Translations under genes and position numbers: made by a program
IMG/VR virus record: IMGVR_UViG_3300033571_029303
Coordinates: 1-35,012 of that record
Length of the DNA stretch: 35,012 bases
Direction: 5' to 3' (one strand)
From: a virus
Notes under the pieces: model-generated
Seen by the model: the letters and a program-made list of their open reading frames with translations, nothing else
Databases searched by the model: none
Told to the model about the DNA's origin: nothing
Part shown: positions 1,212 to 32,665 of the stretch, piece after piece
Layout: each line of letters begins with the position of its first letter
Position numbering within the stretch: the stretch's first letter is position 1

Positions 1212-1212
1212 T

Positions 1213-3400: not shown

Positions 3401-3404
3401 TAAA

Positions 3405-4076: not shown

Positions 4077-4089
4077 ATAAGAAGTTAAT

Positions 4090-4692: not shown

Positions 4693-4706
4693 AACAAGGT
4701 ATTTTT

Positions 4707-6259: not shown

Positions 6260-7178
6260 AAAAATTTTTATTACAGGTGGAGCTGGTTACTTAGGTCAGA
6301 ATCTCTGTAAATATTTGTCTCAAGATAACGAAATAATAGTTTACTCCAGAGACGAATCAAAACATTATTACATGCAAAAGCAGTTTCCTAATGTAAGATT
6401 TATAATCGGAGATATACGTAATAAAGATTATTTAATAAGAAAATCTAAAGGATGTACAATTGGAATATTTGCGGCATCTTTAAAACAGATAGATGCCTGT
6501 ACCAATAATTACGAAGAAGCTTCTAAAATCATAATAGATGGTGCTATAAATTCAAGACTTGCAGCCGAAGAAAATGGATTTAAGTCGGCAAGTTTTATAT
6601 CGTCAGACAAAAGTCGAGCAGCAACCACAATATATGGTGCCATGAAATATGTTGCAGGAGAGTCTTTTATAGTTGGCGATTCTAACTCTAATTTAACCAC
6701 TTTAATTTATGGAAATGTTGCAAATTCAACCGGGTCAATTATTCCATTAATATGGAATTGTATCAAAAACAATAGATGTTTGACTCTTTATGAGCCTTCA
6801 ATGACTCGTTTTTGGATAGATATCAAAGATGCAGTGGATTTAATAGTCAAGGCTCAAAAATATAAAGGTTGTAATATAATACCAAAAATAAAATCTTTTT
6901 GTATAGAAGATTTGTGTAAAATTTATAGCGAAAAATTTGGATTGAAATATACAGTCGGCACTCCTCGTGTCGGAGAAAAAATTCATGAAATAATGGCTTC
7001 TAATGAGGAAATTCGAAGATTGCAATATGTTTCTTCTGATAATTTATACGTTCTGTATCCAGACAGACAAATCAATAATTTAAGTTTTCCAAATAACGAA
7101 TATTCTTCAAAAGATTTTTGTATGGATATAAACGAATTGTTCCATGTACTAGAAGATAAGGATTTTTATAAATTATGA
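6249..7178 (+). CDS. NDP-sugar dehydratase/epimerase, extended SDR (CapD/PseB/WbjB-like)
   Basis: A 309-residue protein with an N-terminal NAD(P) site TGGAGYLG (9-16), acidic GDIRNKD (54-60), and ISSDKSRAATTIYGAMK (117-133). The last stretch carries the Tyr129-x-x-x-Lys133 pair and the SxDKA-like strip typical of UDP-GlcNAc 4,6-dehydratases (PseB, CapE/WbjB, FlaA1). It probably converts a UDP-HexNAc to a 4-keto-6-deoxy intermediate. The following gene is an RmlD/CapF-like reductase, so the pair fits early steps toward an N-acetyl-fucosamine or related 6-deoxy amino sugar. The precise product is not decidable. Confidence 0.82.
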   Translation: MKNEKIFITGGAGYLGQNLCKYLSQDNEIIVYSRDESKHYYMQKQFPNVRFIIGDIRNKDYLIRKSKGCTIGIFAASLKQIDACTNNYEEASKIIIDGAINSRLAAEENGFKSASFISSDKSRAATTIYGAMKYVAGESFIVGDSNSNLTTLIYGNVANSTGSIIPLIWNCIKNNRCLTLYEPSMTRFWIDIKDAVDLIVKAQKYKGCNIIPKIKSFCIEDLCKIYSEKFGLKYTVGTPRVGEKIHEIMASNEEIRRLQYVSSDNLYVLYPDRQINNLSFPNNEYSSKDFCMDINELFHVLEDKDFYKL

Positions 7179-7978
7179 AATGTGCAATATTCGGAAATAA
7201 TGGAATGCTCGGTTCGTATGCTCGATCTTATTTACAAGACTTTTATGAAATATCGTCTTTTGGTAGGAAAGATATAGATATATTTTCTTGTAGTAAAAAA
7301 GATTTTTTTGATTTTGCCGACAAAAAATTAAAAAATATCGATGTGATAATAAACTGTGCAGGTGTCATAAAGCAAAGAAATGTTTCCGATGAAGAAATGA
7401 TAATTGTAAATTCAATATTTCCGCATTGGTTGGCTGAAATTAAAAAGAATACTAATTGTAATGTAATACATTTTACTACTGACTGTGTTTATAGTGGTAT
7501 TAAAGGTAATTACTCGGAAGACGACAAACACGATTGCGCTGATGTTTATGGAAAATCCAAATCAATAGGTGAAAATCAAAACTTGACTATTATTAGAACT
7601 TCTATTATTGGAGAAGAGCAAAGAAATAAATTAAGTTTATTAGAATGGGTAAAATCTAATCAAAATAAAACAGTAAATGGTTTTACAAATCATTTCTGGA
7701 ACGGAGTGACGTGTTTAGAATTGATGAAGTATGTACATAGTATTATAAACTACAATCTTTATTGGAATGGTGTTCGCAACGTTTTCAGTCCAAATGTTGT
7801 ATCTAAATATGATTTAGTTAATATGATATCTGAAGTTTATGAATTAAACGTTAGTGTTAATAAAAACAGTCATATTGATTTTTGTGACAGGTCTCTTTCT
7901 TCAATTCACAGTAAAAAACCCATAGCAAAATCATTAATCAATCAATTAATTGAAATTAAAAATTTTAAATTAAGTTAA
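7175..7978 (+). CDS. sugar-nucleotide reductase, RmlD-like SDR
   Basis: A 267-residue protein starting MKCAIFGNNGMLGS, an RmlD-type GxxGxxG dinucleotide site. It has VIINCAG (57-63), HFTTDCVYSG (99-108) and the catalytic YGKSK (125-129). RmlD/CapF-type enzymes reduce 4-keto groups of 6-deoxy NDP-sugars using NAD(P)H. The gene overlaps the dehydratase gene by 4 bases, which supports a two-step route. A CapF-like C-terminal cupin is absent here, though a cupin is fused to the next protein. The order is typical of O-antigen and capsule clusters. Confidence 0.82.
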   Translation: MKCAIFGNNGMLGSYARSYLQDFYEISSFGRKDIDIFSCSKKDFFDFADKKLKNIDVIINCAGVIKQRNVSDEEMIIVNSIFPHWLAEIKKNTNCNVIHFTTDCVYSGIKGNYSEDDKHDCADVYGKSKSIGENQNLTIIRTSIIGEEQRNKLSLLEWVKSNQNKTVNGFTNHFWNGVTCLELMKYVHSIINYNLYWNGVRNVFSPNVVSKYDLVNMISEVYELNVSVNKNSHIDFCDRSLSSIHSKKPIAKSLINQLIEIKNFKLS

Positions 7979-7988
7979 TAGGTTTATT

Positions 7989-8945
7989 ATGAAAGATATA
8001 AAATTAGTAATGTTTGATCTCGATGGTGTTTTGGTTGATGCTTGTGAACTTCATTACGAAGCTCTAAACAAAGCTTTAACTGCAAACGGCAAATCGTCGA
8101 TAAGCCGAGAAGACCACGAAAGCAAATATAACGGTCTTCCTACCAAAGTAAAGCTGAATCTTCTTGGATATGAAGATGCTTTGATAAAAAAGATCGACAG
8201 CGACAAGCAAAATTATACTTTAGAACTGATTGAAAAATGTTGCACCAAAAGACAAGAAAAAATTGACTTGATTGATTATTTAAAAAAAAGAGGCATAGTT
8301 GTCGGTTGTGTGACCAATTCAATAAGAAAAACCACGCAAAAAATGCTAATTCAGACCGGCATTTACGATAAAATAGATTTTTGCATAACAAACGAAGATG
8401 TTGATTTTGCTAAACCGGATCCAGAAGGTTATGTAAAGGGTATATCTTTTTACAACAATCTTATCGACTCGATTGCCAATCAAGTAATAATAGTTGAAGA
8501 CAGTCCTAAAGGATTGCAAGCAGCTCGAGCCACTGGTGCTTGTGTTATTCAAGTAAAGGATCCAAATGACGTTCATGTTGGATTGTTCAACTCGATTGTT
8601 GCAAAAGATGTTGAAAAGTCTCAAGTAAGTATGATGCGTGGTGGGTGGTTTGTTGGCGCATTTGAACCTACATTAGAAAACACCAAAGATTTTGAAGTTG
8701 GTTACAGAAGTTACAAAAAAGGCGAAGATCATGATATGCATTATCATGTTGTAGCCAAAGAAATAAATTGTGTCGCTAGAGGATGTGTAGAAATTGAAGG
8801 AGAATTGTATAAAGAGGGCGACATTTTCATTGTTCATCCTTTCAAAGCAATTAAACCGATATTTCATGAAGACAGTTCTATAGTTTGCGTTAAGATACCA
8901 TCATGTCCCAACGATAAATATGTCTTAAAGGACATTACACTATGA
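7989..8945 (+). CDS. HAD-superfamily phosphatase fused to a C-terminal cupin-like domain
   Basis: A 318-residue protein. The HAD part (about 1-210) has motif I MFDLDGVLVD (8-17), a motif II-like VTNS, KPDPEGY and the metal-binding VEDSPKG. It fits the beta-phosphoglucomutase/sugar-phosphatase subgroup. The C-terminal 100 residues carry a histidine-bearing beta-strand pattern (HDMHYHVVAKE ... GCVEIEGELYKEGDIFIVHPF) typical of a small cupin. The likely role is dephosphorylation or isomerisation of a sugar phosphate; the cupin may be an epimerase-like or sensory domain. It overlaps the nucleotidyltransferase by 4 bases. The combination is unusual, but both halves are clear. Confidence 0.8.
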   Translation: MKDIKLVMFDLDGVLVDACELHYEALNKALTANGKSSISREDHESKYNGLPTKVKLNLLGYEDALIKKIDSDKQNYTLELIEKCCTKRQEKIDLIDYLKKRGIVVGCVTNSIRKTTQKMLIQTGIYDKIDFCITNEDVDFAKPDPEGYVKGISFYNNLIDSIANQVIIVEDSPKGLQAARATGACVIQVKDPNDVHVGLFNSIVAKDVEKSQVSMMRGGWFVGAFEPTLENTKDFEVGYRSYKKGEDHDMHYHVVAKEINCVARGCVEIEGELYKEGDIFIVHPFKAIKPIFHEDSSIVCVKIPSCPNDKYVLKDITL

Positions 8946-9655
8946 AGATATTGATACCGATGGCTGGAGAAGGATCCAGGTTTGCCAAAGAGGGATATAC
9001 GTTCCCCAAACCATTAATCGATGTTAATGGTAAACCTATGATACAAAATGTTGTGGAAAATATCAGCTTTGATGCTGATTATATTTTTCTGGTAAGAAAA
9101 AGTCATTTAGACAAATATCCTGGTCTTGGTTCTACCCTAGAAAGAATCACCAAAGGAAAAACAACAATAGTGACTGTTGATAGTTTGACCGAAGGCGCAG
9201 CGTGTACAGCTTTGCTTGCTAAAGATTACATAAACAACGACGATGATCTGCTTATCGCCAATTCTGATCAAATAATCGAATACAGCAAAGAAAATTTTGT
9301 AATTATCAAAGACAAGATAAGCGTTGACGGTATAGTGTTTGCGTTTCGTTCAACTCATCCTAAATGGTCGTTTGTAAAGTTAAACAAAGAAAATTATATA
9401 ACTGAAGTTGCTGAAAAAAAACCAATTTCGGATGTTGCTACTTGTGGAATATATTGGTACAAGCGTGGTAAAGACTTTGTATCGGCTGCCGAGCAAATGA
9501 TTGCCAAAAACATACGGGTGAACAATGAATTTTATGTAGCCCCCGTCTACAACGAAATGATATCCGATGGTAAATTCATACTACCATTTTTTGTTGATAA
9601 AATGCATGGTATCGGAACACCGGAAGACTTGACAAATTATTTAAAAATAATATGA
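8942..9655 (+). CDS. sugar-phosphate nucleotidyltransferase
   Basis: A 237-residue protein with the NTP-transferase signature IPMAGEGSRFAKEGYTFPKPL (about 5-25), i.e. G-x-G-S/T-R-x ... K-P. NSDQII near residue 105 supplies the catalytic/metal aspartate, and the C-terminal part carries a second acidic site near MHGIGTPEDL. It would activate a sugar 1-phosphate (or glycerol-like phosphate) to its NDP form for the transferases upstream. It overlaps the HAD gene and the GDPD-like gene by 4 bases each. HAD, nucleotidyltransferase and GDPD-like genes in a row suggest supply of an unusual activated building block. Confidence 0.85.
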   Translation: MKILIPMAGEGSRFAKEGYTFPKPLIDVNGKPMIQNVVENISFDADYIFLVRKSHLDKYPGLGSTLERITKGKTTIVTVDSLTEGAACTALLAKDYINNDDDLLIANSDQIIEYSKENFVIIKDKISVDGIVFAFRSTHPKWSFVKLNKENYITEVAEKKPISDVATCGIYWYKRGKDFVSAAEQMIAKNIRVNNEFYVAPVYNEMISDGKFILPFFVDKMHGIGTPEDLTNYLKII

Positions 9656-10128
9656 AGTATTTGATATCTCATCGTGGCAATATTGATGGTCCAGTCAAAC
9701 AATTTGAGAACATGCCACAATACATAGATCTGGCCCATTCTAAAGGTTATGATGTTGAAATTGATGTGTGGTATGACTCTCAAAATTCTGATTACCATCT
9801 TGGCCATGATACACCAGAATATAAAATTTCCAAACAGTGGTTGTTGGAAAGAAAAGACTGGTTATGGTGTCACGCAAAAAATCTTGAAGCTTTACAGCAA
9901 CTAATTCAAGACGATCTGCACTGTTTTTGGCACCAAGAAGATCAAGCCACAATCACCAGCAAAAGAATAATCTGGTGTTACCCTGGAAATTTTATAAAAA
10001 ATGGTATAGCGGTAATTCCAGAAAATGTTTTTTCGGTATCAGAATTTAAAAAAATTGTGAATAAAGTTTTGGGAGTTTGCACCGATTATCCTAGTAAATT
10101 CTCATCAGAAGATTATAATACGGTATGA
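9652..10128 (+). CDS. short glycerophosphodiester phosphodiesterase-like (PI-PLC-like) protein
   Basis: A 158-residue protein opening with ISHRGN (His7-Arg8), then EN, GYDVEIDVWY (Glu36, Asp38) and LGHDTP (His52, Asp53). These match the catalytic and metal residues of the GDPD TIM-barrel family. Typical GDPDs are about 240 residues, so this is a minimal version found in some capsule loci. It may act on a glycerophosphate- or phosphodiester-linked glycan decoration. Its stop overlaps the helicase start by 4 bases (ATGA), which ties the glycan cluster to core phage replication genes. Confidence 0.7.
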   Translation: MKYLISHRGNIDGPVKQFENMPQYIDLAHSKGYDVEIDVWYDSQNSDYHLGHDTPEYKISKQWLLERKDWLWCHAKNLEALQQLIQDDLHCFWHQEDQATITSKRIIWCYPGNFIKNGIAVIPENVFSVSEFKKIVNKVLGVCTDYPSKFSSEDYNTV

Positions 10129-12777: not shown

Positions 12778-13725
12778 ATGTTACAGCGATTGGTTGAAAA
12801 ACTCGAAACTTTTGGTGTGGTGCGTGTTGACGGAAAACGCATAAAGGTTTGCATACCTTCAAAATGTCGCAACGACCGCGTGCAGGTTTTGCAACAAGTA
12901 AGCGACAATTTTCAAGATTTTTCTGCTGTGTTGATGAACGATATGCCCAGCTACAGCAGCATTGGGTATGTGCAAATACAAGATTTTCGAATAAGCGTCA
13001 AATCGCTACCGCAACAAAGCAGCATGTCGCCGGGTGTACCCAACGAGCATGTTCTAGCACAAAAAATTAATAAATATATAAAAGAATCGGGAACGATAAA
13101 TTTAATATTTTTGAGCGATAAAAATAGAATTTGCTATGAAAATGTTATGAATTGTCGTTTAACCGAAAATCGTAAATCAAGAAAAGGGCGCAACAAAGCC
13201 GATATGATCGTCGAAACACAACAAAACAACTATGCAGTTTCGATCAAACAGGACGATGCCGAGCGTTGGGAGTCGGCAGACACGTCGCACGGTACAGTAG
13301 CCCTTCAGCAGCTTCAAAAAGCTTTGGACGAACAAAAAACCCGCTTGCTTCCGGTTCTCGATAAAAACGGAGCACCGATGGTTCGCAAAGACGGAAGAAC
13401 CGTGATGCGGTTGGAAAACGAGCTTTTTTGGTGCATGGAAGAAAACCAAGCCAAAAAGACGATTTTTGGCGATGATGTTTGCAACGGTGGAGCGGTGGTT
13501 TTCAACACGTTCAACGATTCTCATTTTTCGTACAACAGCACCGATTCTAGTTTGACGGTTGCATGCGACCGAGTGTACACAACAGACGGCTCGATCGATG
13601 CACAAGATCATCCGTACTGGATAATCAGAAACGACGTAACCAGAAACTGTCGAAAGCTTGGAATACCCGGACTTCGCATCGAATCGGTATTCAAATCACG
13701 TATAAAATACGGAGTCGAAGTTTAA
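12778..13725 (+). CDS. putative PD-(D/E)XK-like nuclease-fold protein, first gene of the structural block
   Basis: A 315-residue protein from ATG 12778; an ATG at 12754 inside the hairpin's 5' arm would add 8 residues. A central segment GRNKADMIVET...YAVSIKQD has the D...(V/I)-x-(V/I)-K layout of PD-(D/E)XK restriction-like nucleases, preceded by basic RKSRKGRNK. The rest shows no known motif. A short AT-rich patch (about 13060-13150) interrupts the otherwise G+C-richer gene. Its stop TAA shares a base with the next ATG, which encodes the ATP-grasp fusion. Nuclease activity is an inference from one motif; it could equally be a virion protein. Confidence 0.5.
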   Translation: MLQRLVEKLETFGVVRVDGKRIKVCIPSKCRNDRVQVLQQVSDNFQDFSAVLMNDMPSYSSIGYVQIQDFRISVKSLPQQSSMSPGVPNEHVLAQKINKYIKESGTINLIFLSDKNRICYENVMNCRLTENRKSRKGRNKADMIVETQQNNYAVSIKQDDAERWESADTSHGTVALQQLQKALDEQKTRLLPVLDKNGAPMVRKDGRTVMRLENELFWCMEENQAKKTIFGDDVCNGGAVVFNTFNDSHFSYNSTDSSLTVACDRVYTTDGSIDAQDHPYWIIRNDVTRNCRKLGIPGLRIESVFKSRIKYGVEV

Positions 13726-16055
13726 TGCCAAACAACAATCACGTTACTGTTATTGTTTTGACATCTTCCGGAAAAGACGGTAGCGACACCGTAAACAAAA
13801 TACAACAGTCTTGCAAAAAGTTTGGCAAAAAGTTTTACATGGTTTCCACTCAGTATGCGTACATTGATGATCGTGCGTCAACTTCTGAAAAAATAGTGAT
13901 ACACAATCACGACGGTAGCGGCAAAAGCATCACACTCGATCCGCGTGATGTGGTTTGTTTTGCGCGTGGAGGCGTAACCAACACTCAAATCGGAATGGCG
14001 ATTCTTACGATTTTCGAGAACACCGGGATGTTTGTGATCAACGAACGTCGCCCGATGGAACTTTGTGCCAACAAGCTTTACAGTGCCATACAACTCGACA
14101 GTTACGATATACCAACACCAAAAACGGCGTTTGTTGCCAATTTGAGTTCGCTCGACAACGCACTCGAACAAATCGGCAATCAATTTCCGGTGATTGTAAA
14201 AACACTCACGGGTGCCGAAGGAGTTGGTGTTTCGATAGTTGACAGCTACGAAAGCTTGAAATCGGTTCTGCAAACTCTTTGGAAATACGATGCGGAACTT
14301 TTGATTCAAGAATACTTGGAAATCAAAAACGATGTTCGTGTGTTGGTTTTGGATGGCAAAGTTGTTGCAGCAGCGATGCGCGGCAAAGCACCCAGAGACT
14401 TTCGCACCAACCTTGCGCAAGGTGCCGAAGGTGGTCCGTATAAAATCAGCGACCAAGAGCGAGAAATAGCCGAGCGTGCGGCAGAGGTTTTTGGAACGTA
14501 TTATGTGGGTGTGGATATGATTACCAGCAAAGGAAAACCATATGTGATCGAACTCAACGCTTCACCCGGCAGCGGAAACGTGTATCGCAGCTATTTTCCC
14601 GACAGCGAAGGCAAAAACATCACGGGTCAAAAATTGATCGACAGCGTTGTCAAGCATGCAATAAACCGAGAAAATTGGAATTTCAATCACCGTGAAGTTG
14701 GTTTGATCGAACCGATCGACATCGATTCTATTGGAAAATACAAAGCCAAACTGGATACCGGCAACGAAAGTTACAATGTGTTGGGTGCAGAAAACATCGA
14801 AGAATACAACGGAACTGTTGCGTTTACGGTGCAAGGTAAAAAATATGAAAAACCCGTTGTGTCGCATGTGAGAATACGAACCAACAACATAAATGTGGAT
14901 CGTCGCCCGGTGGTGGAATTTGACGTAGAATTCAGAAATCGTAAATTCAAAAACATACGATTCAGTTTGGTGCCCAGAAGATTCAACAAATATCCTGTTT
15001 TGATTGGCAACAAATTTATGAATTTGGCCAAGATATCGGTAAACGTCAATACGATTCAAACGTTACCCGAAAGCAACAAAAACAATCAATATATTGAAAA
15101 AATAAATACATTAGGAAGTTTTGTGCAAATCGACGAAATGCGCGATATTCTTGCAGAAAAACTTCAAACGTGCAAAAAAGAAGATGAAGTAGTTTTGATC
15201 GAAGAGGCTTTGGGTCATATCAATGTTGCAAAATACAATTTAAAAAACCAGCAACAACAAGCTTACGATAGGAACACAATCATGTATGCCGACAAAAAGT
15301 TTTTAAAATTCTTAGAAAACTTTAACAATGAAAATTCTGAAAAACAAAATTTAAACGAAGAGGTTGTGTCCGAAGCCACACGCGCCAGCAGCATTTCGCA
15401 AGCGAGAAAAGCACTCGCCAAAATATCCAAAAAGCGCGAAGCGTTGCGTAAAGGCAAAAAGCAACGCAAAAGCCGTTCGGTTGGTGTAAAAATCGTAAAA
15501 GGCAAGCCCAAAGAAAAAGACTATCAACGCCTCGATCGAGCAATTCAACGCAAGCGTGCCAAGTCGGATCGTGAAAAGGGTATCGTAAGAACGAAAAAGC
15601 GTGAAAAGATGGGTCCTGCGCACGTTGGTGCGATCGAAGGAGCAAGCATTCCAGCAAGTCGCGAATATTCGCAATCGCGACGTTCGCAGCTCGAACGCTT
15701 GTATTCCAGAAAGAAATACAAAGAAAAGGCTCCAACCGAATACAACCCAGAAATGGCATCGATTCGCTTTTGGAACTATCGCACCCCCACAAACCCAAGA
15801 CGCAGCGATGCAGGCAATCCAATGCAAAGCGGTGCGCGTGCGAGTGTGGTTGACGGTGGCATCAAGCAGCGTTTTGGACGCTACTACGGCAACAAAAAGG
15901 GCAAAACCAAGAGCCGCACCGGTATGACCGGCGAAGAAATTCGTTCGGTTGTTCGTGAAAAGATTCGTCGTGGCGAATGGCCATCTCCGGGTGGTATGGC
16001 TGGTTTGCGCAAAGGCTGGGAAAAGACTTGGATGAAGAAAAAGAAAAAGGACTGA
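13725..16055 (+). CDS. RimK-type ATP-grasp ligase / retropepsin-like (RimB-type) peptidase / basic tail fusion
   Basis: A 776-residue protein. Residues 1-300 form a RimK-like ATP-grasp ligase: PVIVKTLTGAEGVGVS (about 155-170), LIQEYLEIKNDVRVLVLDGK, and the metal site VIELNASPGSGN (274-285). Residues about 325-440 match the RimK-associated ATP-dependent zinc protease/retropepsin-like family: IDIDSIGKYKAKLDTGNES with Asp344-Thr-Gly, then VDRRPVVEF and FNKYPVLIGNKFM. Residues 530-776 are very Lys/Arg rich. RimK adds glutamates to protein C-termini and RimB-type proteins trim them, so writer and eraser may be joined here. The site LNEEVVSEA before the basic tail resembles a prohead-protease site. 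Confidence 0.85.
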   Translation: MPNNNHVTVIVLTSSGKDGSDTVNKIQQSCKKFGKKFYMVSTQYAYIDDRASTSEKIVIHNHDGSGKSITLDPRDVVCFARGGVTNTQIGMAILTIFENTGMFVINERRPMELCANKLYSAIQLDSYDIPTPKTAFVANLSSLDNALEQIGNQFPVIVKTLTGAEGVGVSIVDSYESLKSVLQTLWKYDAELLIQEYLEIKNDVRVLVLDGKVVAAAMRGKAPRDFRTNLAQGAEGGPYKISDQEREIAERAAEVFGTYYVGVDMITSKGKPYVIELNASPGSGNVYRSYFPDSEGKNITGQKLIDSVVKHAINRENWNFNHREVGLIEPIDIDSIGKYKAKLDTGNESYNVLGAENIEEYNGTVAFTVQGKKYEKPVVSHVRIRTNNINVDRRPVVEFDVEFRNRKFKNIRFSLVPRRFNKYPVLIGNKFMNLAKISVNVNTIQTLPESNKNNQYIEKINTLGSFVQIDEMRDILAEKLQTCKKEDEVVLIEEALGHINVAKYNLKNQQQQAYDRNTIMYADKKFLKFLENFNNENSEKQNLNEEVVSEATRASSISQARKALAKISKKREALRKGKKQRKSRSVGVKIVKGKPKEKDYQRLDRAIQRKRAKSDREKGIVRTKKREKMGPAHVGAIEGASIPASREYSQSRRSQLERLYSRKKYKEKAPTEYNPEMASIRFWNYRTPTNPRRSDAGNPMQSGARASVVDGGIKQRFGRYYGNKKGKTKSRTGMTGEEIRSVVREKIRRGEWPSPGGMAGLRKGWEKTWMKKKKKD

Positions 16056-16747: not shown

Positions 16748-16755
16748 TATAAATA
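16748..16755 (+). promoter_or_regulatory. T4-type late promoter TATAAATA
   Basis: An exact TATAAATA, the -10 element read by the T4 gp55 late sigma factor, lies in the only sizeable gap of the structural block, 28 bases before ATG 16784. This suggests late expression of the downstream virion genes. Confidence 0.7.
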
Positions 16756-16783: not shown

Positions 16784-17509
16784 ATGTTTAATAATCATAA
16801 TTTGCCCAAGTCGCTTATCAACGAAGTTGCCAACTTGCTTGGCACAACCAATTCGGATTTTGAACTTCCATCCGAGCTGCAAGAAATTGTGGCAGAAGCG
16901 GCGCGTGATTATGTGATGTGTCCCACACGAGAAGATCGCAAAGCCATCATCGAATGGCATATCGATCAAGTTATGGACATTAAAGACGTTGATTCGCAAG
17001 TGATTGTCAATTTTGAACGCGCAGTGGAATACACTGCTTTCAACGAAGCTGCGCCGATTGTTGGTGCAATTGGACGCGTGGCTATGCAAGCCGCTAAAAA
17101 TCCAGCGGTACAACAAGCGGCAGCAAAAATCGCTTCGGATGCCGTTGGCGGAATGATCAATCGAGCAAAGAAAAAGCTTGAACCCGAACTCACCAACGAA
17201 GCCAAAAAAAGAAGCTTTGGTGAAACTATGCGCCTCATGGCCAGACAAGCCGGAGTTCGTTTGGGACACAAGCAACCACAACCACAACCAGAAAAAAAAT
17301 CAATCGGCAACGTTCCTCTTGTGCACAAGGGTCCAGAGCCGATGCAAGATTCGGTCGATTACTCGCAACTCGTCCAAGCACTTTCCGAACTCAACGAACA
17401 AGAATTGAGTGCATATTTTGATATTGTAACTGTTGGTGAAGGTGGCATGCTTTCGGAACAGCAAGCCGAAGATCTTTACCGTGCGCTTGTTGAAGCAGAA
17501 ATCATTTAA
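16784..17509 (+). CDS. putative virion/head-associated protein with C-terminal NEQE-type motif
   Basis: A 241-residue protein. It has a helical N-terminus (LPKSLINEVANLLG), an Ala-rich central region around VGGMINRAKKK with basic clusters, a QPQPQPEKK linker, and a C-terminal helical motif YSQLVQALSELNEQELSAYF (193-212). The same motif recurs in the proteins at 20755 and, more weakly, 19655, so these proteins may dock on a common partner. It sits behind a TATAAATA late promoter with AAGGA as ribosome site. No enzymatic motif is seen; a scaffold or internal head role is inferred from context. Confidence 0.55.
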   Translation: MFNNHNLPKSLINEVANLLGTTNSDFELPSELQEIVAEAARDYVMCPTREDRKAIIEWHIDQVMDIKDVDSQVIVNFERAVEYTAFNEAAPIVGAIGRVAMQAAKNPAVQQAAAKIASDAVGGMINRAKKKLEPELTNEAKKRSFGETMRLMARQAGVRLGHKQPQPQPEKKSIGNVPLVHKGPEPMQDSVDYSQLVQALSELNEQELSAYFDIVTVGEGGMLSEQQAEDLYRALVEAEII

Positions 17510-17546: not shown

Positions 17547-18497
17547 ATGCCCCTCTGGAACAATAAAGACTCAGAAAGCAGCAAACCAAGTTGGCTCACC
17601 GAAGAACAGAAGCGTCAGTGCTTCCGTACCGTTCGCGGATGGGAAATTCCGCTTGCGGGTCAAGGTTTCACCAACACAGCCGAAAACGTTTTCGGTTTGA
17701 CCAGCAACGGTACCACTGGTATTCCTTACCTGTACCGCTCGCCAAACTTTGTTGGTATGACCGAATTGCTTGTTGCCATGCCTATGGATCCTTCTGCCGC
17801 TGGCGTGACCAACGATTATCTTGCTGGTTTGCCAGCCACCGAAAAGCGTGGTGAAGTCAGTGGATTTGGTGGAACCGGTCCAACCAACGGAATTTACGGT
17901 GCAACCTCGGGTGATGATGTTCCCAACTACAAGCCATACATTACGGCTCCGGCTTCGGGTATCACCAACACGGCTCCTGGTACGATTGTTTATGCCACCA
18001 AGGGCATCACCAGCTACATTCCTGTAATCGCTTCGGATGCAAACTACACCGATGAACCAAAACTTTTTAGGTTTACTCTCGGTACCGCAGCCGCATCTAG
18101 TGGTCTTACGGGTTTGAGCCTCACATTTGGTGCTGGCTTTACTACCGGTACTTTTACGCATCTTTACAACACAATTCAAGCCACAGCCGGAACATCTGCT
18201 ATCACAGGTTCCACGCTCACCACTCGTCAGTTGTTGGTATTAAATCAGCCAACAACTCTCGTTGGTATGACCGCTGCTGGTTCCTACTGGGATCCTGCTA
18301 CCGCAACTTCTTATGTTGTGAACCGTTACGGTGGTTGGGGTGGCATCACTCAAGGTGCAGCCGTTTTGATTGTTGGTCCTTCGGCTGTAACCGGAAACTA
18401 CAGCTTGCGTCTCAGTGTGTTTGACGGTCGCGCTTCGGGTGGAGCAACCGGAACCGTAGACTTTACGCTCTCGATCACTAGCGGCACTTCTTATTGA
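17547..18497 (+). CDS. virion structural protein, beta-rich
   Basis: A 316-residue protein with a strong ribosome site AAGGAG. It opens MPLWNNKDSESSKPSWL, resembling the MPLWG...KPKWL opening of structural proteins of marine T4-like phages. The rest is rich in Gly, Thr, Ser, Ala and Tyr with alternating hydrophobics and few charges, as in beta-sandwich or Ig-like surface proteins. The end reads GATGTVDFTLSITSGTSY. It could be a head decoration or tail-surface protein. Cysteine is absent, as in many virion proteins. The stop overlaps the upstream part of the next reading frame. Confidence 0.7.
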   Translation: MPLWNNKDSESSKPSWLTEEQKRQCFRTVRGWEIPLAGQGFTNTAENVFGLTSNGTTGIPYLYRSPNFVGMTELLVAMPMDPSAAGVTNDYLAGLPATEKRGEVSGFGGTGPTNGIYGATSGDDVPNYKPYITAPASGITNTAPGTIVYATKGITSYIPVIASDANYTDEPKLFRFTLGTAAASSGLTGLSLTFGAGFTTGTFTHLYNTIQATAGTSAITGSTLTTRQLLVLNQPTTLVGMTAAGSYWDPATATSYVVNRYGGWGGITQGAAVLIVGPSAVTGNYSLRLSVFDGRASGGATGTVDFTLSITSGTSY

Positions 18498-18505
18498 GGA
18501 AACCG

Positions 18506-19246
18506 ATGAAACGTTACAAAGATCTTCGCGAAAAATTAAATGAAGATTCGGAAAGTTACTATGATGCCAAGTATCGTGTTGGTCCACTCGGAGGCAACAA
18601 CGAAGTAGACCAAGCGGATGCGGCAATTTTCGATCTTGCTCGTCCCGACAATGTTCGTCGCATCAACACTTATCTTGGTGCGGCTGGCGCAAAACCTGTT
18701 TTGGATCCAAATAGCGTTCTTCGTCAAATCCAGAAAAAGTTGTCGATGATTGGATTGCAGTTTAGCATTCCAACCAGCGACTTGGGTGGTAGATCTCGTT
18801 ACGGAACCAACGATGTTCCGGATGGTGGCGAGGGCACAACCACAAACGAATACCCACTTTCTTATTTGGGTGGTCGTTTTGGTGTTCTCGACAACACCGG
18901 AAAAATTGGTTACGACGACAACATCTCGCATCGATTGGGTCATGGTCTCAAACTTCGTGTTGTGTACCAAGACACTCCGAATGGTATGACTACGGTTGTG
19001 GCCAAAGTTGTAACTTCGGATTCCAACAACTCGGGAGAATTGAACGTTCCGAGCATGATGAAACAAGCAATCAACACCATGCGTGATGCGATGTCTAAAA
19101 ACGAAAACTACACCACACAGATGACTGGTATGACAACTGTGCTTCCAAAGCAAGGTGCCAGCGACGATACAGTCGCCGATGTGCAAACGACCGACAAGGT
19201 CGCCAGCATAATCGGTCGTCTGAGAAACATCACGCCGGGTCAATAA
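18506..19246 (+). CDS. putative virion protein with T4-like targeting N-terminus
   Basis: A 246-residue protein from ATG 18506, with GAGG 7 bases ahead overlapping the previous stop; an in-frame TTG at 18494 is less likely. The N-terminus MKRYKDLREKLNEDSES resembles the T4 capsid-targeting sequence, ending in a possible prohead-protease site LNE. The body contains PDNVRRINTYLG, a GGRSRYGTND loop and SMMKQAINTMRDAM. No enzyme motif is recognised. It lies directly after the structural protein and is likely a head or tail component. Confidence 0.6.
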   Translation: MKRYKDLREKLNEDSESYYDAKYRVGPLGGNNEVDQADAAIFDLARPDNVRRINTYLGAAGAKPVLDPNSVLRQIQKKLSMIGLQFSIPTSDLGGRSRYGTNDVPDGGEGTTTNEYPLSYLGGRFGVLDNTGKIGYDDNISHRLGHGLKLRVVYQDTPNGMTTVVAKVVTSDSNNSGELNVPSMMKQAINTMRDAMSKNENYTTQMTGMTTVLPKQGASDDTVADVQTTDKVASIIGRLRNITPGQ

Positions 19247-19260
19247 ATATATTATGATTT

Positions 19261-19650
19261 ATGAAATTCAAAAAACTTGATGATGATAATTTTTTGTTGT
19301 ACGCAATCAAGCACTATGATAATCCTCAATGTGTGAGCATGGAAGAGTTTTATCAGGATTTGTCCGCAATAATATATCTCAAAAGACTTTTTAAGAAATA
19401 CAAGAAATCAGGAGAAATTCGCGAACAGTTGGTTTTGAATCACACAATATTGTTGTACAACGTATTTGGTATCGAACCAGCCACACGAATACTTTTTTGG
19501 AAAATAGATAAAGAATATCATTCGCAGTTAAAAACTATTTTAATATTTTTGAATTATATAAAAGAGAATCATAACTACGGTGAATGGGATTTAGAAATGA
19601 ATCTCATTCCATTAGACGAAACCCTGGTGGAACGTTTAAGAAGGATTTAA
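19261..19650 (+). CDS. conserved T4-like phage protein of unknown function (129 aa)
   Basis: A 129-residue protein. The pattern FLLYAIKHYDNPQCVSMEEF, IIYLKRLFKKYKKSG, REQLVLNHTILLYNVFG and IPLDETLVERLRRI recurs in small proteins encoded beside structural genes of marine T4-like phages, where it is uncharacterised. It is more A+T rich than its neighbours. An AATAAATA string at 19242-19249, overlapping the upstream stop, may be a weak late promoter. The ribosome site is poor. It carries no targeting N-terminus and is probably a morphogenesis accessory factor rather than a processed internal protein. Confidence 0.65.
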   Translation: MKFKKLDDDNFLLYAIKHYDNPQCVSMEEFYQDLSAIIYLKRLFKKYKKSGEIREQLVLNHTILLYNVFGIEPATRILFWKIDKEYHSQLKTILIFLNYIKENHNYGEWDLEMNLIPLDETLVERLRRI

Positions 19651-19654
19651 CCCA

Positions 19655-20743
19655 ATGAAAAGCAACCACATGTCGATGATGCGCAATCATATTTTCAACA
19701 TCGCCGAAAAGAACAACCGTTCCAACAAGAGAATTCAGGAAGTTCGCAATCAGCGTTTGTTTGGAACCGAGCCATCGTATCTTGTGGTTGATTTGATGGA
19801 CGATGTGTATCAAATGAACGAACAGCAATTTTCGTTCTTCATGAATTCTTTGAACGTATACGATCGTCAGCGCGTTGATGATATTTTTGAAAGCGTATCG
19901 GATGCAATGGATTCGATGCTTGAATATCGTTCGCAATCCAAATGTTTGTTTGAACAATTCGACAGCTTGAGCGAAATGTTTTTGATTGAAGCTCAGATCG
20001 ACGTTTCCAAGAAGTTGCTGGGCGAACTTCAACGTCGTTTGGCTGCAGCCAAGCCGGACGATCTTTCTCAGATCACTGCTCTCAAAAGCAGCATCGAAAA
20101 AACCAAATCACGAATCGCTGCACTTGAAAAAGCCGGAAAAACCGGAGGAGAATTGGCTGGCACCAAGAAAGAAATTTCTGCTTTTGAAAAAGATGTCAAA
20201 TCCAAAACTTCTCCGGGTAAAAAACCAACATTGACATTGGATCAGTTTAAGAAATATCAAGAACTCGGCAAAAAGAAGGCAGAAACCGAAGCCAAACTCA
20301 AGGGAGAAAGCGGCGAAGCACAAAAAGCCAATCTGTTCTCGAAAGACAAAACTTCTCCGCTTGTGTCCAAGTACAATCTCAAACCGATTGAAAAGCCAGC
20401 CGAAAAACCCGAAGAAAAGCCTGCGGAAAAAACCGCAGAAAAGCCTGCGGAAAAACCAGTGGAAGCTCCAGCCGAAAAACCAAAGAGCTGGTGGCAAAAA
20501 TGGAAAGAAGATCAACGCAAGCACACCAACATCATGCTTAGCGATGCAGGCGAAGGTGCGGCTTACTACGCCAAGCGAGCACGTCAAATTGGTGGCGATA
20601 TCGCCAAGGGTACCGCTGAACTTGCTGGCAGAGGCTACGGAGCCACTTTGCGTGGTGGTGCAAACCTTTACGGTGCGGGTGTTGCGACCGGCAAGGCAAT
20701 CGCCAGACCAGTATACAATCGCATGCGCCCCACGACCGCTTGA
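19655..20743 (+). CDS. coiled-coil, EKPAEKP-repeat virion-associated protein
   Basis: A 362-residue protein. The N-terminal 110 residues contain DVYQMNEQQFSFFMNSLN (50-67), a weaker version of the NEQE motif in the proteins at 16784 and 20755. MFLIEAQ (about 108-114) is a plausible prohead-protease site. Then come long helical segments (SSIEKTKSRIAALEKA, KKKAETEAKLKG), a Pro/Glu/Lys repeat EKPAEKPEEKPAEK (about 245-275), and a C-terminal Gly/Ala/Arg-rich region. The layout suggests an extended scaffold or DNA-associated internal head protein. AAGGAT serves as ribosome site. No enzymatic motif. Confidence 0.6.
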   Translation: MKSNHMSMMRNHIFNIAEKNNRSNKRIQEVRNQRLFGTEPSYLVVDLMDDVYQMNEQQFSFFMNSLNVYDRQRVDDIFESVSDAMDSMLEYRSQSKCLFEQFDSLSEMFLIEAQIDVSKKLLGELQRRLAAAKPDDLSQITALKSSIEKTKSRIAALEKAGKTGGELAGTKKEISAFEKDVKSKTSPGKKPTLTLDQFKKYQELGKKKAETEAKLKGESGEAQKANLFSKDKTSPLVSKYNLKPIEKPAEKPEEKPAEKTAEKPAEKPVEAPAEKPKSWWQKWKEDQRKHTNIMLSDAGEGAAYYAKRARQIGGDIAKGTAELAGRGYGATLRGGANLYGAGVATGKAIARPVYNRMRPTTA

Positions 20744-20754
20744 AAGGAATTTTG

Positions 20755-21537
20755 ATGAAGAAGTTTCATCGATTCTACGAAGATGCTAGCACCGCCGCAG
20801 CCGAAGCTGCTGCCGAGGCTGCGGCTAAAAAAGCCGAAGAAGAAAAAAAGAAAGCAGCAAAAGAAGCCGAAGATGCAGCCAAGGCTGAAGCCGAAGCAGC
20901 CAAAGCCGAAGCTCTTGCCGCAAAAGCAGCCGAAGAACAAGCATTAAAAGACAAGATACGAGCGAAACAACTGCAAAAAAGTGCCGAAGAAATGGGCATT
21001 GCTCCTGCCACTGTAGCGAGTGCTGCTCGTGCGGGCGAACGAGCATTCACCGGACACACCCGAAGCATCGGAAATGTTCTTGTGGGAAGAGCGTTGGGTG
21101 GTGCGTATGGTGTGGCAAGAAAAGTAGGATCTATGGCTGTTGGTGCCGGTATTGCAACCGCCAAACAAGTGCCAACAGCAGCAGCAAACGTAGCGGGTGC
21201 CGGTATTGCAACCGCAAAAGCAGCGGGTCGAGCAATCAAAGCAACTCCATCGGCAGTTCCATCGGCAGTGTCTTCGTTGTACCAAAAGTTTCGTTCCGGA
21301 ACTTCCAAGTTGGCGGATCGCTTTAAATCTGGAAGACGAAGTGGTTTGACTTCGAGTTACGAATACTCGGAGTTGATTTCTACGATGTCGCAACTCAACG
21401 AACAAGAATTCAACGCTTTTGTTTCGCAATTGAACGACCAAGAATTTGAATTGGTTGAACAAGCAATCGAATCGATACAACCAACAAACGGATACACCAA
21501 CCTTAGAATGCGTTTGAATGAAAAATATGGTGAATAA
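20755..21537 (+). CDS. Ala-rich internal-head-type protein with targeting N-terminus and NEQE motif
   Basis: A 260-residue protein from ATG 20755 (AAAGGA before it); an in-frame TTG at 20740 is less likely. The N-terminus MKKFHRFYEDAS is T4-targeting-like. An Ala/Glu/Lys helix of about 55 residues follows, then a Gly/Ala-rich region with the repeated phrase AGAGIATAK, basic RFKSGRRSGLTSS, and the C-terminal motif YSELISTMSQLNEQEFNAF (204-222) shared with the protein at 16784. The pattern fits DNA-binding internal or scaffold head proteins. Low sequence complexity makes homology hard to judge. Confidence 0.6.
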   Translation: MKKFHRFYEDASTAAAEAAAEAAAKKAEEEKKKAAKEAEDAAKAEAEAAKAEALAAKAAEEQALKDKIRAKQLQKSAEEMGIAPATVASAARAGERAFTGHTRSIGNVLVGRALGGAYGVARKVGSMAVGAGIATAKQVPTAAANVAGAGIATAKAAGRAIKATPSAVPSAVSSLYQKFRSGTSKLADRFKSGRRSGLTSSYEYSELISTMSQLNEQEFNAFVSQLNDQEFELVEQAIESIQPTNGYTNLRMRLNEKYGE

Positions 21538-21556
21538 TCTTAATATTGGAGAACAT

Positions 21557-22246
21557 ATGAGCTTTAAAAAGTATTTGATCGAATCGCACCTTGATATGAC
21601 CAATTATCATATTGTTCAAAACAAAAACGGTACTTATTCGGTTCACTTTACCACCTCGGATGGCGACGATCAAGAAATACGCAAGCATGCTGCTGCTCAT
21701 GCTGCAATGCACATGAACAAAAAGATCGGCGAAAAACAATTCGATACGCAGCAACAAGCCGAACTTGCAGCTCAAAAAGCATTGAACGTAAAAGACGAAA
21801 AAGAAGGTTATCACGACGATATCGAAGAAGAAGCACCAACAAATGCTGTTGGTAGTGGCGAAAACATTGCAGGCATCAATCCTCCAGCCGGACCAGCTCC
21901 GCTCACCAGCGCAACCTTGAAGGGTGTTGCTGCCGGAATGACTCCGCAAGACATAGCCGATCGTCATGGTGTGAGTCTCGAAAAGATCACCAAGCAAATT
22001 CAAATGGGAATCAAGGTCGAAAAAGAGCACACCGACAACAAGAAAACAGCCATGAAGATTGCGATGGATCATGTGTACGAAGATCCAAAGTACTACAGCA
22101 AACTTGCAAAAATGGAAGGCAAGCCTAAAGACATCGGAAACGACACAAAGTTTATTGGAACCAAAGATCCTCTTGCGCAATATCGCGTCACCACGTTTCA
22201 AACACGACGCAATACCACCAACAAACCAGGAGATCAAACAATATGA
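21557..22246 (+). CDS. head-associated protein, DUF5661-like C-terminus
   Basis: A 229-residue protein from ATG 21557 with GGAGA 5 bases ahead; the frame is open further upstream over the previous gene's end. MSFKKYLIESHLD is a targeting-type N-terminus with an LIE-S cleavage-like site. A middle TNAVGSGENIAGI stretch and the C-terminal LEKITKQIQMGIKVEKEHT...AMKIAMDHVYEDPKYYSKL (about 147-192) look like DUF5661, a phage-associated family of unknown function. The His-rich helix HAAAHAAMHMNKK (about 46-58) is notable. The stop overlaps the next ATG (ATGA). Confidence 0.65.
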   Translation: MSFKKYLIESHLDMTNYHIVQNKNGTYSVHFTTSDGDDQEIRKHAAAHAAMHMNKKIGEKQFDTQQQAELAAQKALNVKDEKEGYHDDIEEEAPTNAVGSGENIAGINPPAGPAPLTSATLKGVAAGMTPQDIADRHGVSLEKITKQIQMGIKVEKEHTDNKKTAMKIAMDHVYEDPKYYSKLAKMEGKPKDIGNDTKFIGTKDPLAQYRVTTFQTRRNTTNKPGDQTI

Positions 22247-23190
22247 AAACCTTTTTTATGGCTTTGTTTGTGCTTTCGGCACTTTGCTTGAATGTAGGAT
22301 GTTCTTGGCGCGGAGAAGTTGAAACTCCAACGATAAAACCAATAAACGACAACACTGCTCAAAGCATCAGCTCGTCGGCAATTATTCAGTCCGACTCGAT
22401 CGCAAAAATCGGTGAAGCCAATGCTTCCAGCAAACAGTCGGTCGATTCGATTCGCGCAACCACCGACGAATCCAACAAAACCGCTGCGAGCATCGTGGAA
22501 AAAACCGAAGATGCTACGATCATCACCAGCGTAGATGCAATCATCAATCACAATCAAAAGATTCGTGAAGATGCAAATGCAATCGAAGCCAACAGCGAAA
22601 AGATACAATCGAATCTTGAATTGGCTCAAAAACAAAACGTTCAAATACAAAAAGACGCTCAAGCTGTTCAAAATTTACAACAAACTATAGCAAATCTTGA
22701 AAACGAAAAACAAAAATTGCAAAACGATGCAATTAAAAATCTGTACACCACACTGAGCTTTTTCTTTGGTTTGGGATTTCTCACGATCATTTCGGGACTG
22801 GTGTTGGCTTTCTTGGTGAACAAAAAGCTAGGTATGAGCATTGCGGGTCTTGGTGTGCTTGCGTTGGCTCTTGCTGCCGGTGCGATTTATTATCTCAAGG
22901 CTATTGCGGTTGTTGCGATTGTTATTATCATCGCAAGCATTGTGGTGTGTTTGGCGATCGGCGTTTGGCATGTGGTGCGTGAAAATCGTGAGAAGCGAAC
23001 ACTCGAACAAGCCAACATCGAAAATGTCACGCTTGTTCAGAAGATCAAAGAGCGTTTGGATCCCAACGCCAAAGTTGAAATCTTTGGCGAATACAAGCCG
23101 GGTCTTGCCAGCACAATACAAAGCGACAACACTCGTGATATTGTAAAGAAAGTTCGCCAGAAAATCGACAGCAACGGAGAAACTGTATGA
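22243..23190 (+). CDS. putative lipoprotein with coiled coil and three C-terminal membrane segments
   Basis: A 315-residue protein. The first 20 residues form a signal peptide, MKTFFMALFVLSALCLNVGC, with Cys20 as candidate lipidation site (the -3 residue Asn is not ideal). Residues about 50-165 are polar and helical with heptad features (IANLENEKQKLQND). Three hydrophobic spans follow near 168-192, 196-218 and 220-245, then a soluble charged tail. It must act at the host envelope, for example in lysis, exclusion or DNA entry. It is coupled by ATGA to head-type genes on both sides, an odd place for it. No family recognised. Confidence 0.6.
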   Translation: MKTFFMALFVLSALCLNVGCSWRGEVETPTIKPINDNTAQSISSSAIIQSDSIAKIGEANASSKQSVDSIRATTDESNKTAASIVEKTEDATIITSVDAIINHNQKIREDANAIEANSEKIQSNLELAQKQNVQIQKDAQAVQNLQQTIANLENEKQKLQNDAIKNLYTTLSFFFGLGFLTIISGLVLAFLVNKKLGMSIAGLGVLALALAAGAIYYLKAIAVVAIVIIIASIVVCLAIGVWHVVRENREKRTLEQANIENVTLVQKIKERLDPNAKVEIFGEYKPGLASTIQSDNTRDIVKKVRQKIDSNGETV

Positions 23191-23756
23191 AAAACTTCAA
23201 AGATTTCTTGAACGAAAGCACACAAGCCGAACGTGATCGTGCGATTGCCGCAAGATCCAAGAAAAAAGCAAGCGAAATTGAAGCGGAGATTGACGCTGGT
23301 GGTCAAACACCCGAACGACGTAGGGAATTACGCAAGAGTTTGACTGGTCAAAGAAGAACTGCTTTTGAAAAGGATACAGGAATTCCTTTTGACGTGTTTG
23401 CGAGTTTGTTGAAAAAGGAATCGTACAGTGCCGAAAACGATTACGAAGGCGAAATGGCTAGCAGCGAATTGCGCAACATCATCAGCAACGCTCAAGATGT
23501 TGAATCGATGCTCAAGCCAACCACCAAACTCGAAGCTTGGGTTCAAAGCAAAATCACCAAAGCCAACGACTACATAAACTCGGTGCGCGACTATCTCAAG
23601 AACACTCCGGGTGCGGTTGAAGAAGCACTCGATCCGGTTGGCCAAGAAGATGCCGACATCAACAACGATGGTGTGGTTGATGGCACCGACCGTTATCTCC
23701 GCAAACGTCGTCGTGCTATTGCCAAGGCTATGGCCAAACGAAAAGGTCGCAAATGA
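23187..23756 (+). CDS. head-associated protein with targeting N-terminus and dockerin-like calcium loop
   Basis: A 189-residue protein starting MKNFKDFLNEST, a clear capsid-targeting-type sequence with an LNE-S cleavage-like site. A second domain, EGEMASSELRNIISNA ... LEAWVQSKITKANDYI (about 88-128), is familiar from uncharacterised structural proteins of marine T4-like phages. Near the C-terminus DADINNDGVVDGTDRYL (about 154-170) has the D-x-N-x-D-G-x-x-D spacing of a dockerin/EF-hand calcium loop. The end is strongly basic (KRRRAIAKAMAKRKGRK). Likely a core or internal protein; overlaps both neighbours by 4 bases. Confidence 0.7.
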   Translation: MKNFKDFLNESTQAERDRAIAARSKKKASEIEAEIDAGGQTPERRRELRKSLTGQRRTAFEKDTGIPFDVFASLLKKESYSAENDYEGEMASSELRNIISNAQDVESMLKPTTKLEAWVQSKITKANDYINSVRDYLKNTPGAVEEALDPVGQEDADINNDGVVDGTDRYLRKRRRAIAKAMAKRKGRK

Positions 23757-24040
23757 AAAGCTTCAAGCAATTCATAACCGAACAACAAAAACCCGTTGCT
23801 CCCACTCCAAGATACAACACTCCGATCGTAAGAGATTTCACTAAAGGTCCAGTCAATATCGAACACGATGGAATCTTTAGTGCGTTTGCCAGTGGTCGTC
23901 GAGCAGGATTGAGTCCAACTTTCAATCCCGATCGCGTTCCAACAATTCAAAGAATAGTTCAATCTTTTAAAGTTGGTCAAAGACGCGGAACTTTCGGTCG
24001 CAGACGCAGACCCACCGATTCTCCCGAAACAACGGATTGA
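23753..24040 (+). CDS. small basic internal-protein candidate (95 aa)
   Basis: A 95-residue protein. MKSFKQFITEQQ is the best match here to the T4 targeting sequence (T4 internal proteins begin MKTYQEFIAE). The rest includes FSAFASGRRAGLSPTF, echoing FKSGRRSGLTSS in the protein at 20755, and a basic end GQRRGTFGRRRRP. Small, basic and targeted fits a DNA-associated protein packaged in the head and perhaps injected. It is the last gene before the strand switch, coupled to the preceding gene by 4 bases. Confidence 0.65.
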   Translation: MKSFKQFITEQQKPVAPTPRYNTPIVRDFTKGPVNIEHDGIFSAFASGRRAGLSPTFNPDRVPTIQRIVQSFKVGQRRGTFGRRRRPTDSPETTD

Positions 24041-25440: not shown

Positions 25441-25824
25441 TTATCTATCGCCAACATCCTTTGGACTGCCGTTGAGGGTTCCCGTGTGTTGATTACGGTT
25501 TCTGCCTTTTGCGGCTGTATCGTCGTTGTTTTCTTGTTTGCTTCCGGGCATCATGTGTTGGGGATTCACGCACTTGCGATTGTCGCAAGTATGCATCAAC
25601 ACTTGACCTTTGGCTACTGGACCCAAGAACAGTTCGTATGCCACGATGTGTGCTGGACGAGCCACCCCGTCTTGCCAAAACTGACCGTAATGATCGGTTC
25701 CTGTGTGTGCGGTGTATTCCCAACAACCATCTTTGGTTGGTTTTATTTTTTCCATGAAACGTTGTTGCTCGTTGCCGTGTTGTTCGGCTACGTATTCACG
25801 AAACGATTTGAATGGTTTTGCCAT
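25441..25824 (-). CDS. HNH_3-type homing endonuclease-like protein
   Basis: A 127-residue protein. VLMHTCDNRKCVNPQHMMPGSKQENNDD (about 75-102) is the classic HNH_3 core: H-x-C-D-x-x-x-C-x-N-P-x-H-L-x-x-G-T-x-x-x-N, with catalytic His and Asn. WEYTAHTGTDHYGQF upstream is the usual strand before it. The N-terminus MAKPFKSFREYVAEQ closely resembles the head-targeting N-termini of the virion block, so this enzyme might be packaged. A CATAAATA element is 6 bases from the ATG, leaving almost no leader. A short free-standing homing-type nuclease. Confidence 0.85.
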   Translation of the reverse strand: MAKPFKSFREYVAEQHGNEQQRFMEKIKPTKDGCWEYTAHTGTDHYGQFWQDGVARPAHIVAYELFLGPVAKGQVLMHTCDNRKCVNPQHMMPGSKQENNDDTAAKGRNRNQHTGTLNGSPKDVGDR

Positions 25825-32200: not shown

Positions 32201-32665
32201 TTATTTAGCTTTGCGCCACAAATCGGCATCGGCTGTGCGGCGTGTTTTGCCGCCAGTAAGAAACGAATTGACGCGAGCATGTCCCCACTGTTGAGGGGTG
32301 GTTCCGGGACGATGACCCGTTCGCCAAGCCGCAACGCCACGGTTGTAAACTTGACGAAGAATCGATGTGGCGATGCCGCTCTTTTTTGCTTTTTCGCGCA
32401 AAGATTTTGTGGCACTTTCAACTATCTCCACCATGCGAGCAAGAACGCTTTCGCCGTACATTTCACGATACTTGCGTGTGTATTTGCTTGGCTTGGTTCG
32501 TGCGGTGCGATCGCCGGGTGCTGGTTTGTATGCGCTTGGATCGCGCCAGTGCTTTTCGGCTCCACGCTTGAAGTGCTTGGCGCGAGCTTTACGCTTGCTG
32601 CTGCTCATGCCGGTGTTATAACGTGCGATGGTTCCGGTAAAGTCGTGTGGTACTTGCTTGCGCAT
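32201..32665 (-). CDS. DUF5824-like phage protein
   Basis: A 154-residue strongly basic protein with AGGA ahead of its ATG. The C-terminal 70 residues read SGIATSILRQVYNRGVAAWRTGHRPGTTPQQWGHARVNSF, the pattern I associate with DUF5824 of phages, where GHRPG and QWxxARV are the hallmark. The first 70 residues are Arg/Lys rich (MSSSKRKARAKHFKRGAEKHW), suggesting nucleic-acid contact. The family function is not known. Confidence 0.65.
   Translation of the reverse strand: MRKQVPHDFTGTIARYNTGMSSSKRKARAKHFKRGAEKHWRDPSAYKPAPGDRTARTKPSKYTRKYREMYGESVLARMVEIVESATKSLREKAKKSGIATSILRQVYNRGVAAWRTGHRPGTTPQQWGHARVNSFLTGGKTRRTADADLWRKAK

Follow-up and report, generated by a model that had tools for sequence, protein, structure and literature searches.

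Internal proteins bearing an N-terminal capsid targeting sequence (CTS) are a kind already known from bacteriophage T4, where the tagged proteins IPI, IPII and IPIII are anti-restriction factors that block type IV restriction (PMC12373910). Mutagenesis has assigned separate roles to residues of the T4 tag: positions 4 and 7 are needed for targeting, positions 8 and 10 for processing, and an aspartate at position 10 blocks processing only (PMC9026906). Here we examine five genes with CTS-like N-termini in an IMG/VR virus record, IMGVR_UViG_3300033571_029303, taken entire (35,012 bases) and referred to below as the window; the record is probably a fragment of a phage genome. Four or five of the encoded proteins are, we think it likely, capsid-targeted internal cargo of a T4-like phage, processed by its prohead protease gp21 and probably entering the host.

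The five N-termini named in the original prediction are all present, in open genes on the + strand:

18506-19246, +: coding sequence (CDS) 1, 246 aa, IPI-like tag MKRYKDLREKLNE followed by Asp (residues 1-13, 18506-18544), with Y4, L7 and candidate cleavage at LNE13
20755-21537, +: CDS 2, 260 aa, Ala-rich, MKKFHRFYED followed by Ala (residues 1-10, 20755-20784), with F4 and F7 but Y8 and D10
21557-22246, +: CDS 3, 229 aa, MSFKKYLIE followed by Ser (residues 1-9, 21557-21583), tag one residue shorter, ribosome-binding site ggaga
23187-23756, +: CDS 4, 189 aa, MKNFKDFLNE followed by Ser (residues 1-10, 23187-23216), exact T4 register
23753-24040, +: CDS 5, 95 aa, isoelectric point (pI) 11.4, MKSFKQFITE followed by Gln (residues 1-10, 23753-23782), exact T4 register

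Shine-Dalgarno-like sequences precede all five (gaggaa, aaagga, ggaga, ggagaa and aaagg, in order); for CDS 3 the start at 21557 is preferred over an ATG at 21518 because the latter falls within the upstream gene. Aromatic residues occupy positions 4 and 7 exactly in CDS 2, 4 and 5 and are shifted by one in CDS 3, while CDS 1 has Y4/L7 only. The tag ends in [LI]xE in CDS 1 (LNE13), CDS 3 (LIE9), CDS 4 (LNE10) and CDS 5 (ITE10), but not in CDS 2 (YED). Such sites are otherwise sparse in two of the proteins: CDS 1 has just LRE9 and LNE13 along its whole length, and LNE10 is the sole one in CDS 4. In an AlphaFold2 (AF2) model of CDS 4, residues 4-10 form a helix of their own, which is broken at 11-12 before the next helix runs from 13 to 37 (predicted local distance difference test, pLDDT, ~80 there); with few homologues, an overall pLDDT of 72 and a predicted template modelling score of 0.32, the model was used for this N-terminal helix break only. 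The corresponding model of CDS 1 (pLDDT 58) was too weak for a fold search.

Behind the tags the proteins differ. Domain and PHROG searches revealed no family match common to any of the five. CDS 3 has a DUF5661 domain in its C-terminal part (PF18905, E 1.3e-17); CDS 4 combines a helical domain, an EF-hand-like DINNDGVVDGTD loop and a basic tail, and matches phrog_4359 and phrog_3326. Predicted pI values are 6.7, 9.3, 6.8, 9.2 and 11.4 for CDS 1 to 5, so that the description of the set as mostly basic applies to only three of five. PADLOC returned zero matches for the five proteins, and single-sequence searches of IMG/VR returned no direct relative of CDS 1 and one partial match to CDS 3.

How closely do these N-termini resemble those of T4? 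The sequence MKTYQEFIAE, which had been put forward as common to the T4 internal proteins and Alt, is indeed that of IPII and IPIII, but IPI starts MKTFKEFTSTTTPVSTITE and a 682-aa protein that we take to be Alt starts MELITELFDE. CDS 4 and CDS 5 share with IPII and IPIII (cut before Ala) K2, aromatic residues at 4 and 7, I/L at 8 and E10, and in both phages the tag sits on otherwise unrelated proteins. In contrast to IPII and IPIII, the window proteins come from a Kyanoviridae-like group, show no homology to them beyond the tag, have Ser or Gln after the cut and are known from sequence alone, from which we infer packaging. CDS 1 is closer to IPI (likewise cut before Ala), where the targeting pair at 4 and 7 is followed several residues later by [LI]xE; it differs in having Y4/L7 and LNE at 11-13, and no sequence homology between the two was seen. 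CDS 2 is predicted, by analogy, to be targeted but left uncut, because in T4 Asp10 stops processing and not targeting.

In the reading we favour, the tag (K2, aromatic 4, aromatic 7, I/L 8, E10) would form a short helix that binds the prohead core or scaffold and, once bound, would draw the protein inside during prohead assembly. The phage's gp21 (S77) protease would then cut after [LI]xE (LNE13, LIE9, LNE10, ITE10) and free the mature protein, which would travel with the DNA, probably entering the host alongside it. The tag would thus probably mark cargo carried in the head and delivered to the host cell; for this phage, packaging, cleavage, injection and any host function are inferred.

Tagged proteins do occur in the virus particles of a related marine phage, S-CREM2, for which a published report (PMC10665884) lists 52 virion proteins identified by mass spectrometry (MS). 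Across all 219 annotated S-CREM2 CDS, a pattern fixed beforehand made five matches, four of them in the virion list (p = 0.012); the exact T4 register, written after a first look, made four, all in the list (p = 0.0029). These are the S-adenosylmethionine (SAM) lyase gp6 (MKDFDSFLEE), the kinase gp14 (MKRFDAFLTE), gp136 (MQTFSMFFSE) and the cytidylyltransferase gp154 (MKNFSSFLTE). Like the window proteins they carry the tag in a T4-like phage, here a cyanophage, but on different cargo domains, and the available part of the report mentions neither tag nor cleavage. Another S-CREM2 virion protein, gp13, has the N-terminus MKDLHSFLTEQ, and in the nuclease gp12 residues 18-26 read RFASFMAEA. A kinase reported from the virion of S-CRM01 (cited in PMC10665884) starts MISFDQFLSE, and a cytidylyltransferase with the N-terminus MRFRQFIIE was detected in virions of S-SZBM1.

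A separate observation concerns the organisation of the S-CREM2 genes. gp6 and gp12-gp15 (L016:3837-13331) encode the SAM lyase, a Cas9-annotated nuclease, the kinase and two small proteins, all listed in virions and all with CTS-like N-termini, whether exact, internal or degenerate; the region looks like an accessory cargo island.

The cleavage half of the argument can be approached through the relatives' own capsid proteins. Aligned to T4 E65, the propeptide ends of seven relatives (slash marking the cut) read LLTE/A, ILTE/A, FLGE/I, FLSE/A, FISE/A, FLSE/A and IVSE/A, and resemble the ends of the tags. A search for the gp21 homologue, proposed as a check, gave a divided answer: S77 proteases are encoded by all six complete phages examined, T4 and five relatives, and in 4/8 IMG/VR contigs of related loci, but the 35-kb window has none. 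The original interpretation, of T4-type targeting N-termini cut after [LI]xE, is in large part supported, by register, enrichment at gene starts (below), S-CREM2 virions and relatives' capsid sites, and can be carried over to related phages; for the cleavage of CDS 2 it is not supported.

The same observations bear on what we regard as the strongest alternative, namely that the helix is an assembly handle for the portal, neck, tail or DNA-packaging complex, and that its bearers are structural proteins, neither cut nor injected. Large cyanophage proteins encoded between gp16 and gp17 do contain homologous modules, and related clusters hold untagged virion proteins too (S-SZBM1 136 and 139, for example). 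In addition, the tagged proteins have as many internal [LI]xE sites as expected (observed/expected 1.01); the depletion looked for is absent and so is not used as support. However, the tag includes a protease consensus that agrees with the sites at which the relatives' capsid proteins are cut, and its bearers include SAM lyases, kinases and cytidylyltransferases, which are improbable tail parts. We consider this explanation improbable, if worth keeping in mind.

A second alternative holds that the tags are fossils, spread by recombination or duplication and retained through shared descent without present function. Here comparison across relatives is informative, using as anchor the DUF7207 gene (19261-19650), upstream of which the CDS 1 family sits. 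This family has 14 members at 19% mean identity; all 14 have K2 and an aromatic residue at position 4, and 13 have F, L or I at position 7. It includes a homologue in HTVC008M, MKSFKDFQNVNE (E 1.5e-5), just upstream of DUF7207, while Melnitz encodes MKNFKNHIAEE in the position of CDS 1, with a similar N-terminus; both proteins are shorter than CDS 1, and no virion data were found for either. Among the cytidylyltransferases of the cluster, 13/20 distinct sequences have a CTS-like start, and the domains found behind the tag in relatives are mutually unrelated (cytidylyltransferase, DUF6267, Acb1, DUF5824, NT5C, SAM lyase). Degenerate tags in some homologues, such as the MKSLKLFEGQE and MKRLGRLLAEN kinases and an MKTLKELLRKK cytidylyltransferase, speak for this view. 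Yet the tag supplies some of the best-conserved positions of the CDS 1 family despite its low overall identity, and the S-CRM01 kinase holds the register with a different sequence, which makes us think relics without function quite unlikely.

Two further observations concern the tag in other phages. At L041:785-1678 (IMGVR_UViG_3300037076_000045) lies the gene for an Acb1 protein (anti-CBASS; PF23474, E 9.7e-20) whose N-terminus is the tag MKTYLQFISES; an S77 prohead protease is encoded on the same contig. From the Acb1 sequence we would predict an injected anti-CBASS protein. In T4 itself, gene 61.1 (AF158101 18966-19130, - strand; L159) encodes a 54-aa protein, annotated hypothetical, that starts MKTFKEFIKEDM in exact CTS register and lies in the gp41-gp61 interval, the cargo-rich cluster of cyanophages.

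Finally, systematic features of gene starts might mimic a tag. We scanned for a first pattern, M-x(1-3)-[FYW]-xx-[FYWL]-[FYILVM]-x-[ED], and for the exact T4 register. With one gene caller, 4/55 window genes matched the first and 2/55 the second, compared with 0/189 window internal methionines for each; pooled over nine genomes, internal methionines matched at 19/6372 and 1/6372, respectively. Binomial probabilities are ~2e-5 for 4/55 at the pooled rate and ~1.6e-4 for 2/55 when the rate is rounded up to 2 in 6000. The tag of CDS 1 (LNE at 11-13) is missed by both patterns, its support coming from its family. Across 80 IMG/VR loci around DUF7207, with starts picked from their ribosome-binding sites and without regard to the motif, the exact register occurs at 23/1320 predicted starts versus 1/4910 internal methionines, the effective sample being somewhat smaller because a few loci are near-identical. 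As a positive control, the same scan of the T4 genome recovers IPII, IPIII and gp61.1. Positions that no pattern prescribes are also T4-like in 39 distinct tagged N-termini, with K2 in 35 and a cut followed by A or S in 26. Chance or start-composition bias is thus very unlikely to explain the set: a preference for AAA after ATG could yield K2, amphipathic N-termini are common, and a neighbouring gene at 22243 starts MKTFFMALF and reads as a lipoprotein signal peptide rather than a tag, but the combination of F4, F7, I/L8 and E10 is ~80-fold commoner at starts than at internal methionines in the 80 loci, and the window match itself is improbable at the pooled rate.

A number of results weigh against internal cargo as the explanation. 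The fragment itself lacks the protease; CDS 2 has no cleavage site in its tag, and CDS 1 and CDS 2 fit the tag less well than CDS 3-5; internal [LI]xE sites show the absence of depletion already described; and the exact-register pattern was written only after the first scan. With the same caller, HTVC008M and Mosig contain no strict match. The S-SZBM1 virion MS data, as a second proteome, show no association: exact matches were detected in 0/2 cases and relaxed matches in 1/3. Both undetected exact-match proteins are small, and little can be concluded from a protein missing from an MS list.

The original prediction also held that the set was unusually large, and this we regard as unproven. Four matches in 35 kb compare with 0-5 per whole relative genome under the same caller, but set size cannot be judged from a window that is a fragment on a cargo hotspot. 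We rejected the density comparison as proof for that reason, and because the caller recovers only one of the four annotated exact starts in S-CREM2.

What might such tags mean more broadly? Cyanophage virion proteomes repeatedly hold enzymes (cytidylyltransferase/NMNAT, kinase, SAM hydrolase), and the authors leave undecided whether they are cargo or contamination. A CTS on these enzymes would account for their presence and would let a testable list of injected proteins be drawn up from any T4-like genome. Since T4 IPI-III are anti-restriction factors, new anti-defence proteins could be sought through the tags of environmental phages; for some cargo an anti-defence role is a fair guess because T4 tagged proteins block restriction and relatives carry tagged SAM lyase and Acb1, the latter, judged on its sequence, being a direct example of candidate anti-defence cargo. 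We see roughly even chances for a wider claim: that T4-like phages of marine and fresh waters share a short, portable N-terminal tag by which an entire class of proteins is packaged in the head and injected, enzymes and predicted anti-defence proteins among them (SAM lyase, kinases, nicotinamide mononucleotide (NMN)/cytidylyltransferases, Acb1), that cargo loci occupy the gp41-gp61 and gp16-gp17 intervals, and that the window holds one of the densest sets. The papers searched give no account of the tag's spread to marine T4-like phages and their virion enzymes, and none of those found under the term 'capsid targeting sequence' concerns cyanophages, which does not prove that nobody has noted it.

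The surroundings of the five genes contain further features:

16748-16755, +: candidate T4-type late promoter TATAAATA, a weak motif match ahead of 16784 and the following block
17547-18497, +: untagged neighbour starting MPLWNNKD, from a family of 30 in related loci
19261-19650, +: DUF7207 gene, 129 aa, untagged (PF23837 E 2e-41; phrog_407; 761 phage records)
19655-20743, +: Lys-rich neighbour, 362 aa, untagged, with an 'LNEQEF' module in common with CDS 2 and the 16784-17509 protein
25441-25824, -: HNH endonuclease MAKPFKSFREYVAEQ, a possible sixth case with a FREYVAE core at residues 8-14 (HNH PHROGs E 6.5e-28)

The HNH endonuclease is weakened as a sixth case by its start site, since no clear ribosome-binding site is seen; its best homologues align from about residue 8-22 onward only. 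Copies of TATAAATA are in weak excess in the window (three observed, 1.2 expected), and one precedes the block. The proteins of 16784-17509, 19655-20743 and 20755-21537 share a module of ~60 residues around (M/L)NEQ(E/Q)FxxF, which forms the C-terminal part of two of them and lies within residues 37-108 of the third; it had no match in 80 related loci or other genomes.

At the DNA level, the 20 kb surrounding the five genes match none of 50,697 phage records. The replicative helicase of the window is nearest to those of T4-like Kyanoviridae (Synechococcus phage DSL-LC03, 55.6%; Methylophilales phage Melnitz, 51.5%). Downstream of the helicase, where the window has its genes at 12-24 kb, HTVC008M, S-SZBM1, Melnitz and DSL-LC03 have a block of hypothetical genes.

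Between the tagged genes, 22243-23190 probably encodes, by its sequence, a lipoprotein, MKTFFMALFVLSALCLNVGC, with membrane segments; its tag-like start (MKTFFMALF...LNVGC) was rejected as a tag on account of the signal-peptide reading. The protein of 13725-16055 fuses a RimK-type ATP-grasp to an ATP-dependent Zn-protease-like domain (PF08443, PF05618) with a long Lys/Arg-rich tail, and has a homologue in Yersinia phage YerA41 whose annotation reads structural protein; it was rejected as a tagged protein, the FLKFLENFNNE...LNEE stretch being internal and an N-terminal tag absent. On the - strand, 32201-32665 encodes a product of 154 aa with homology (E 9e-42) to a portion of the HTVC008M cytidylyltransferase protein, and a DUF5824 protein in a related locus (L030), similar in sequence to this product, has the CTS MKSFNNFIKED. 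Judged by eye, the genes of positions 1-10128 form a series that resembles sugar metabolism (glycosyltransferase, methyltransferase, polysaccharide deacetylase, formyltransferase, epimerase-like and nucleotidyltransferase-like), probably with a role in surface glycan or DNA modification.

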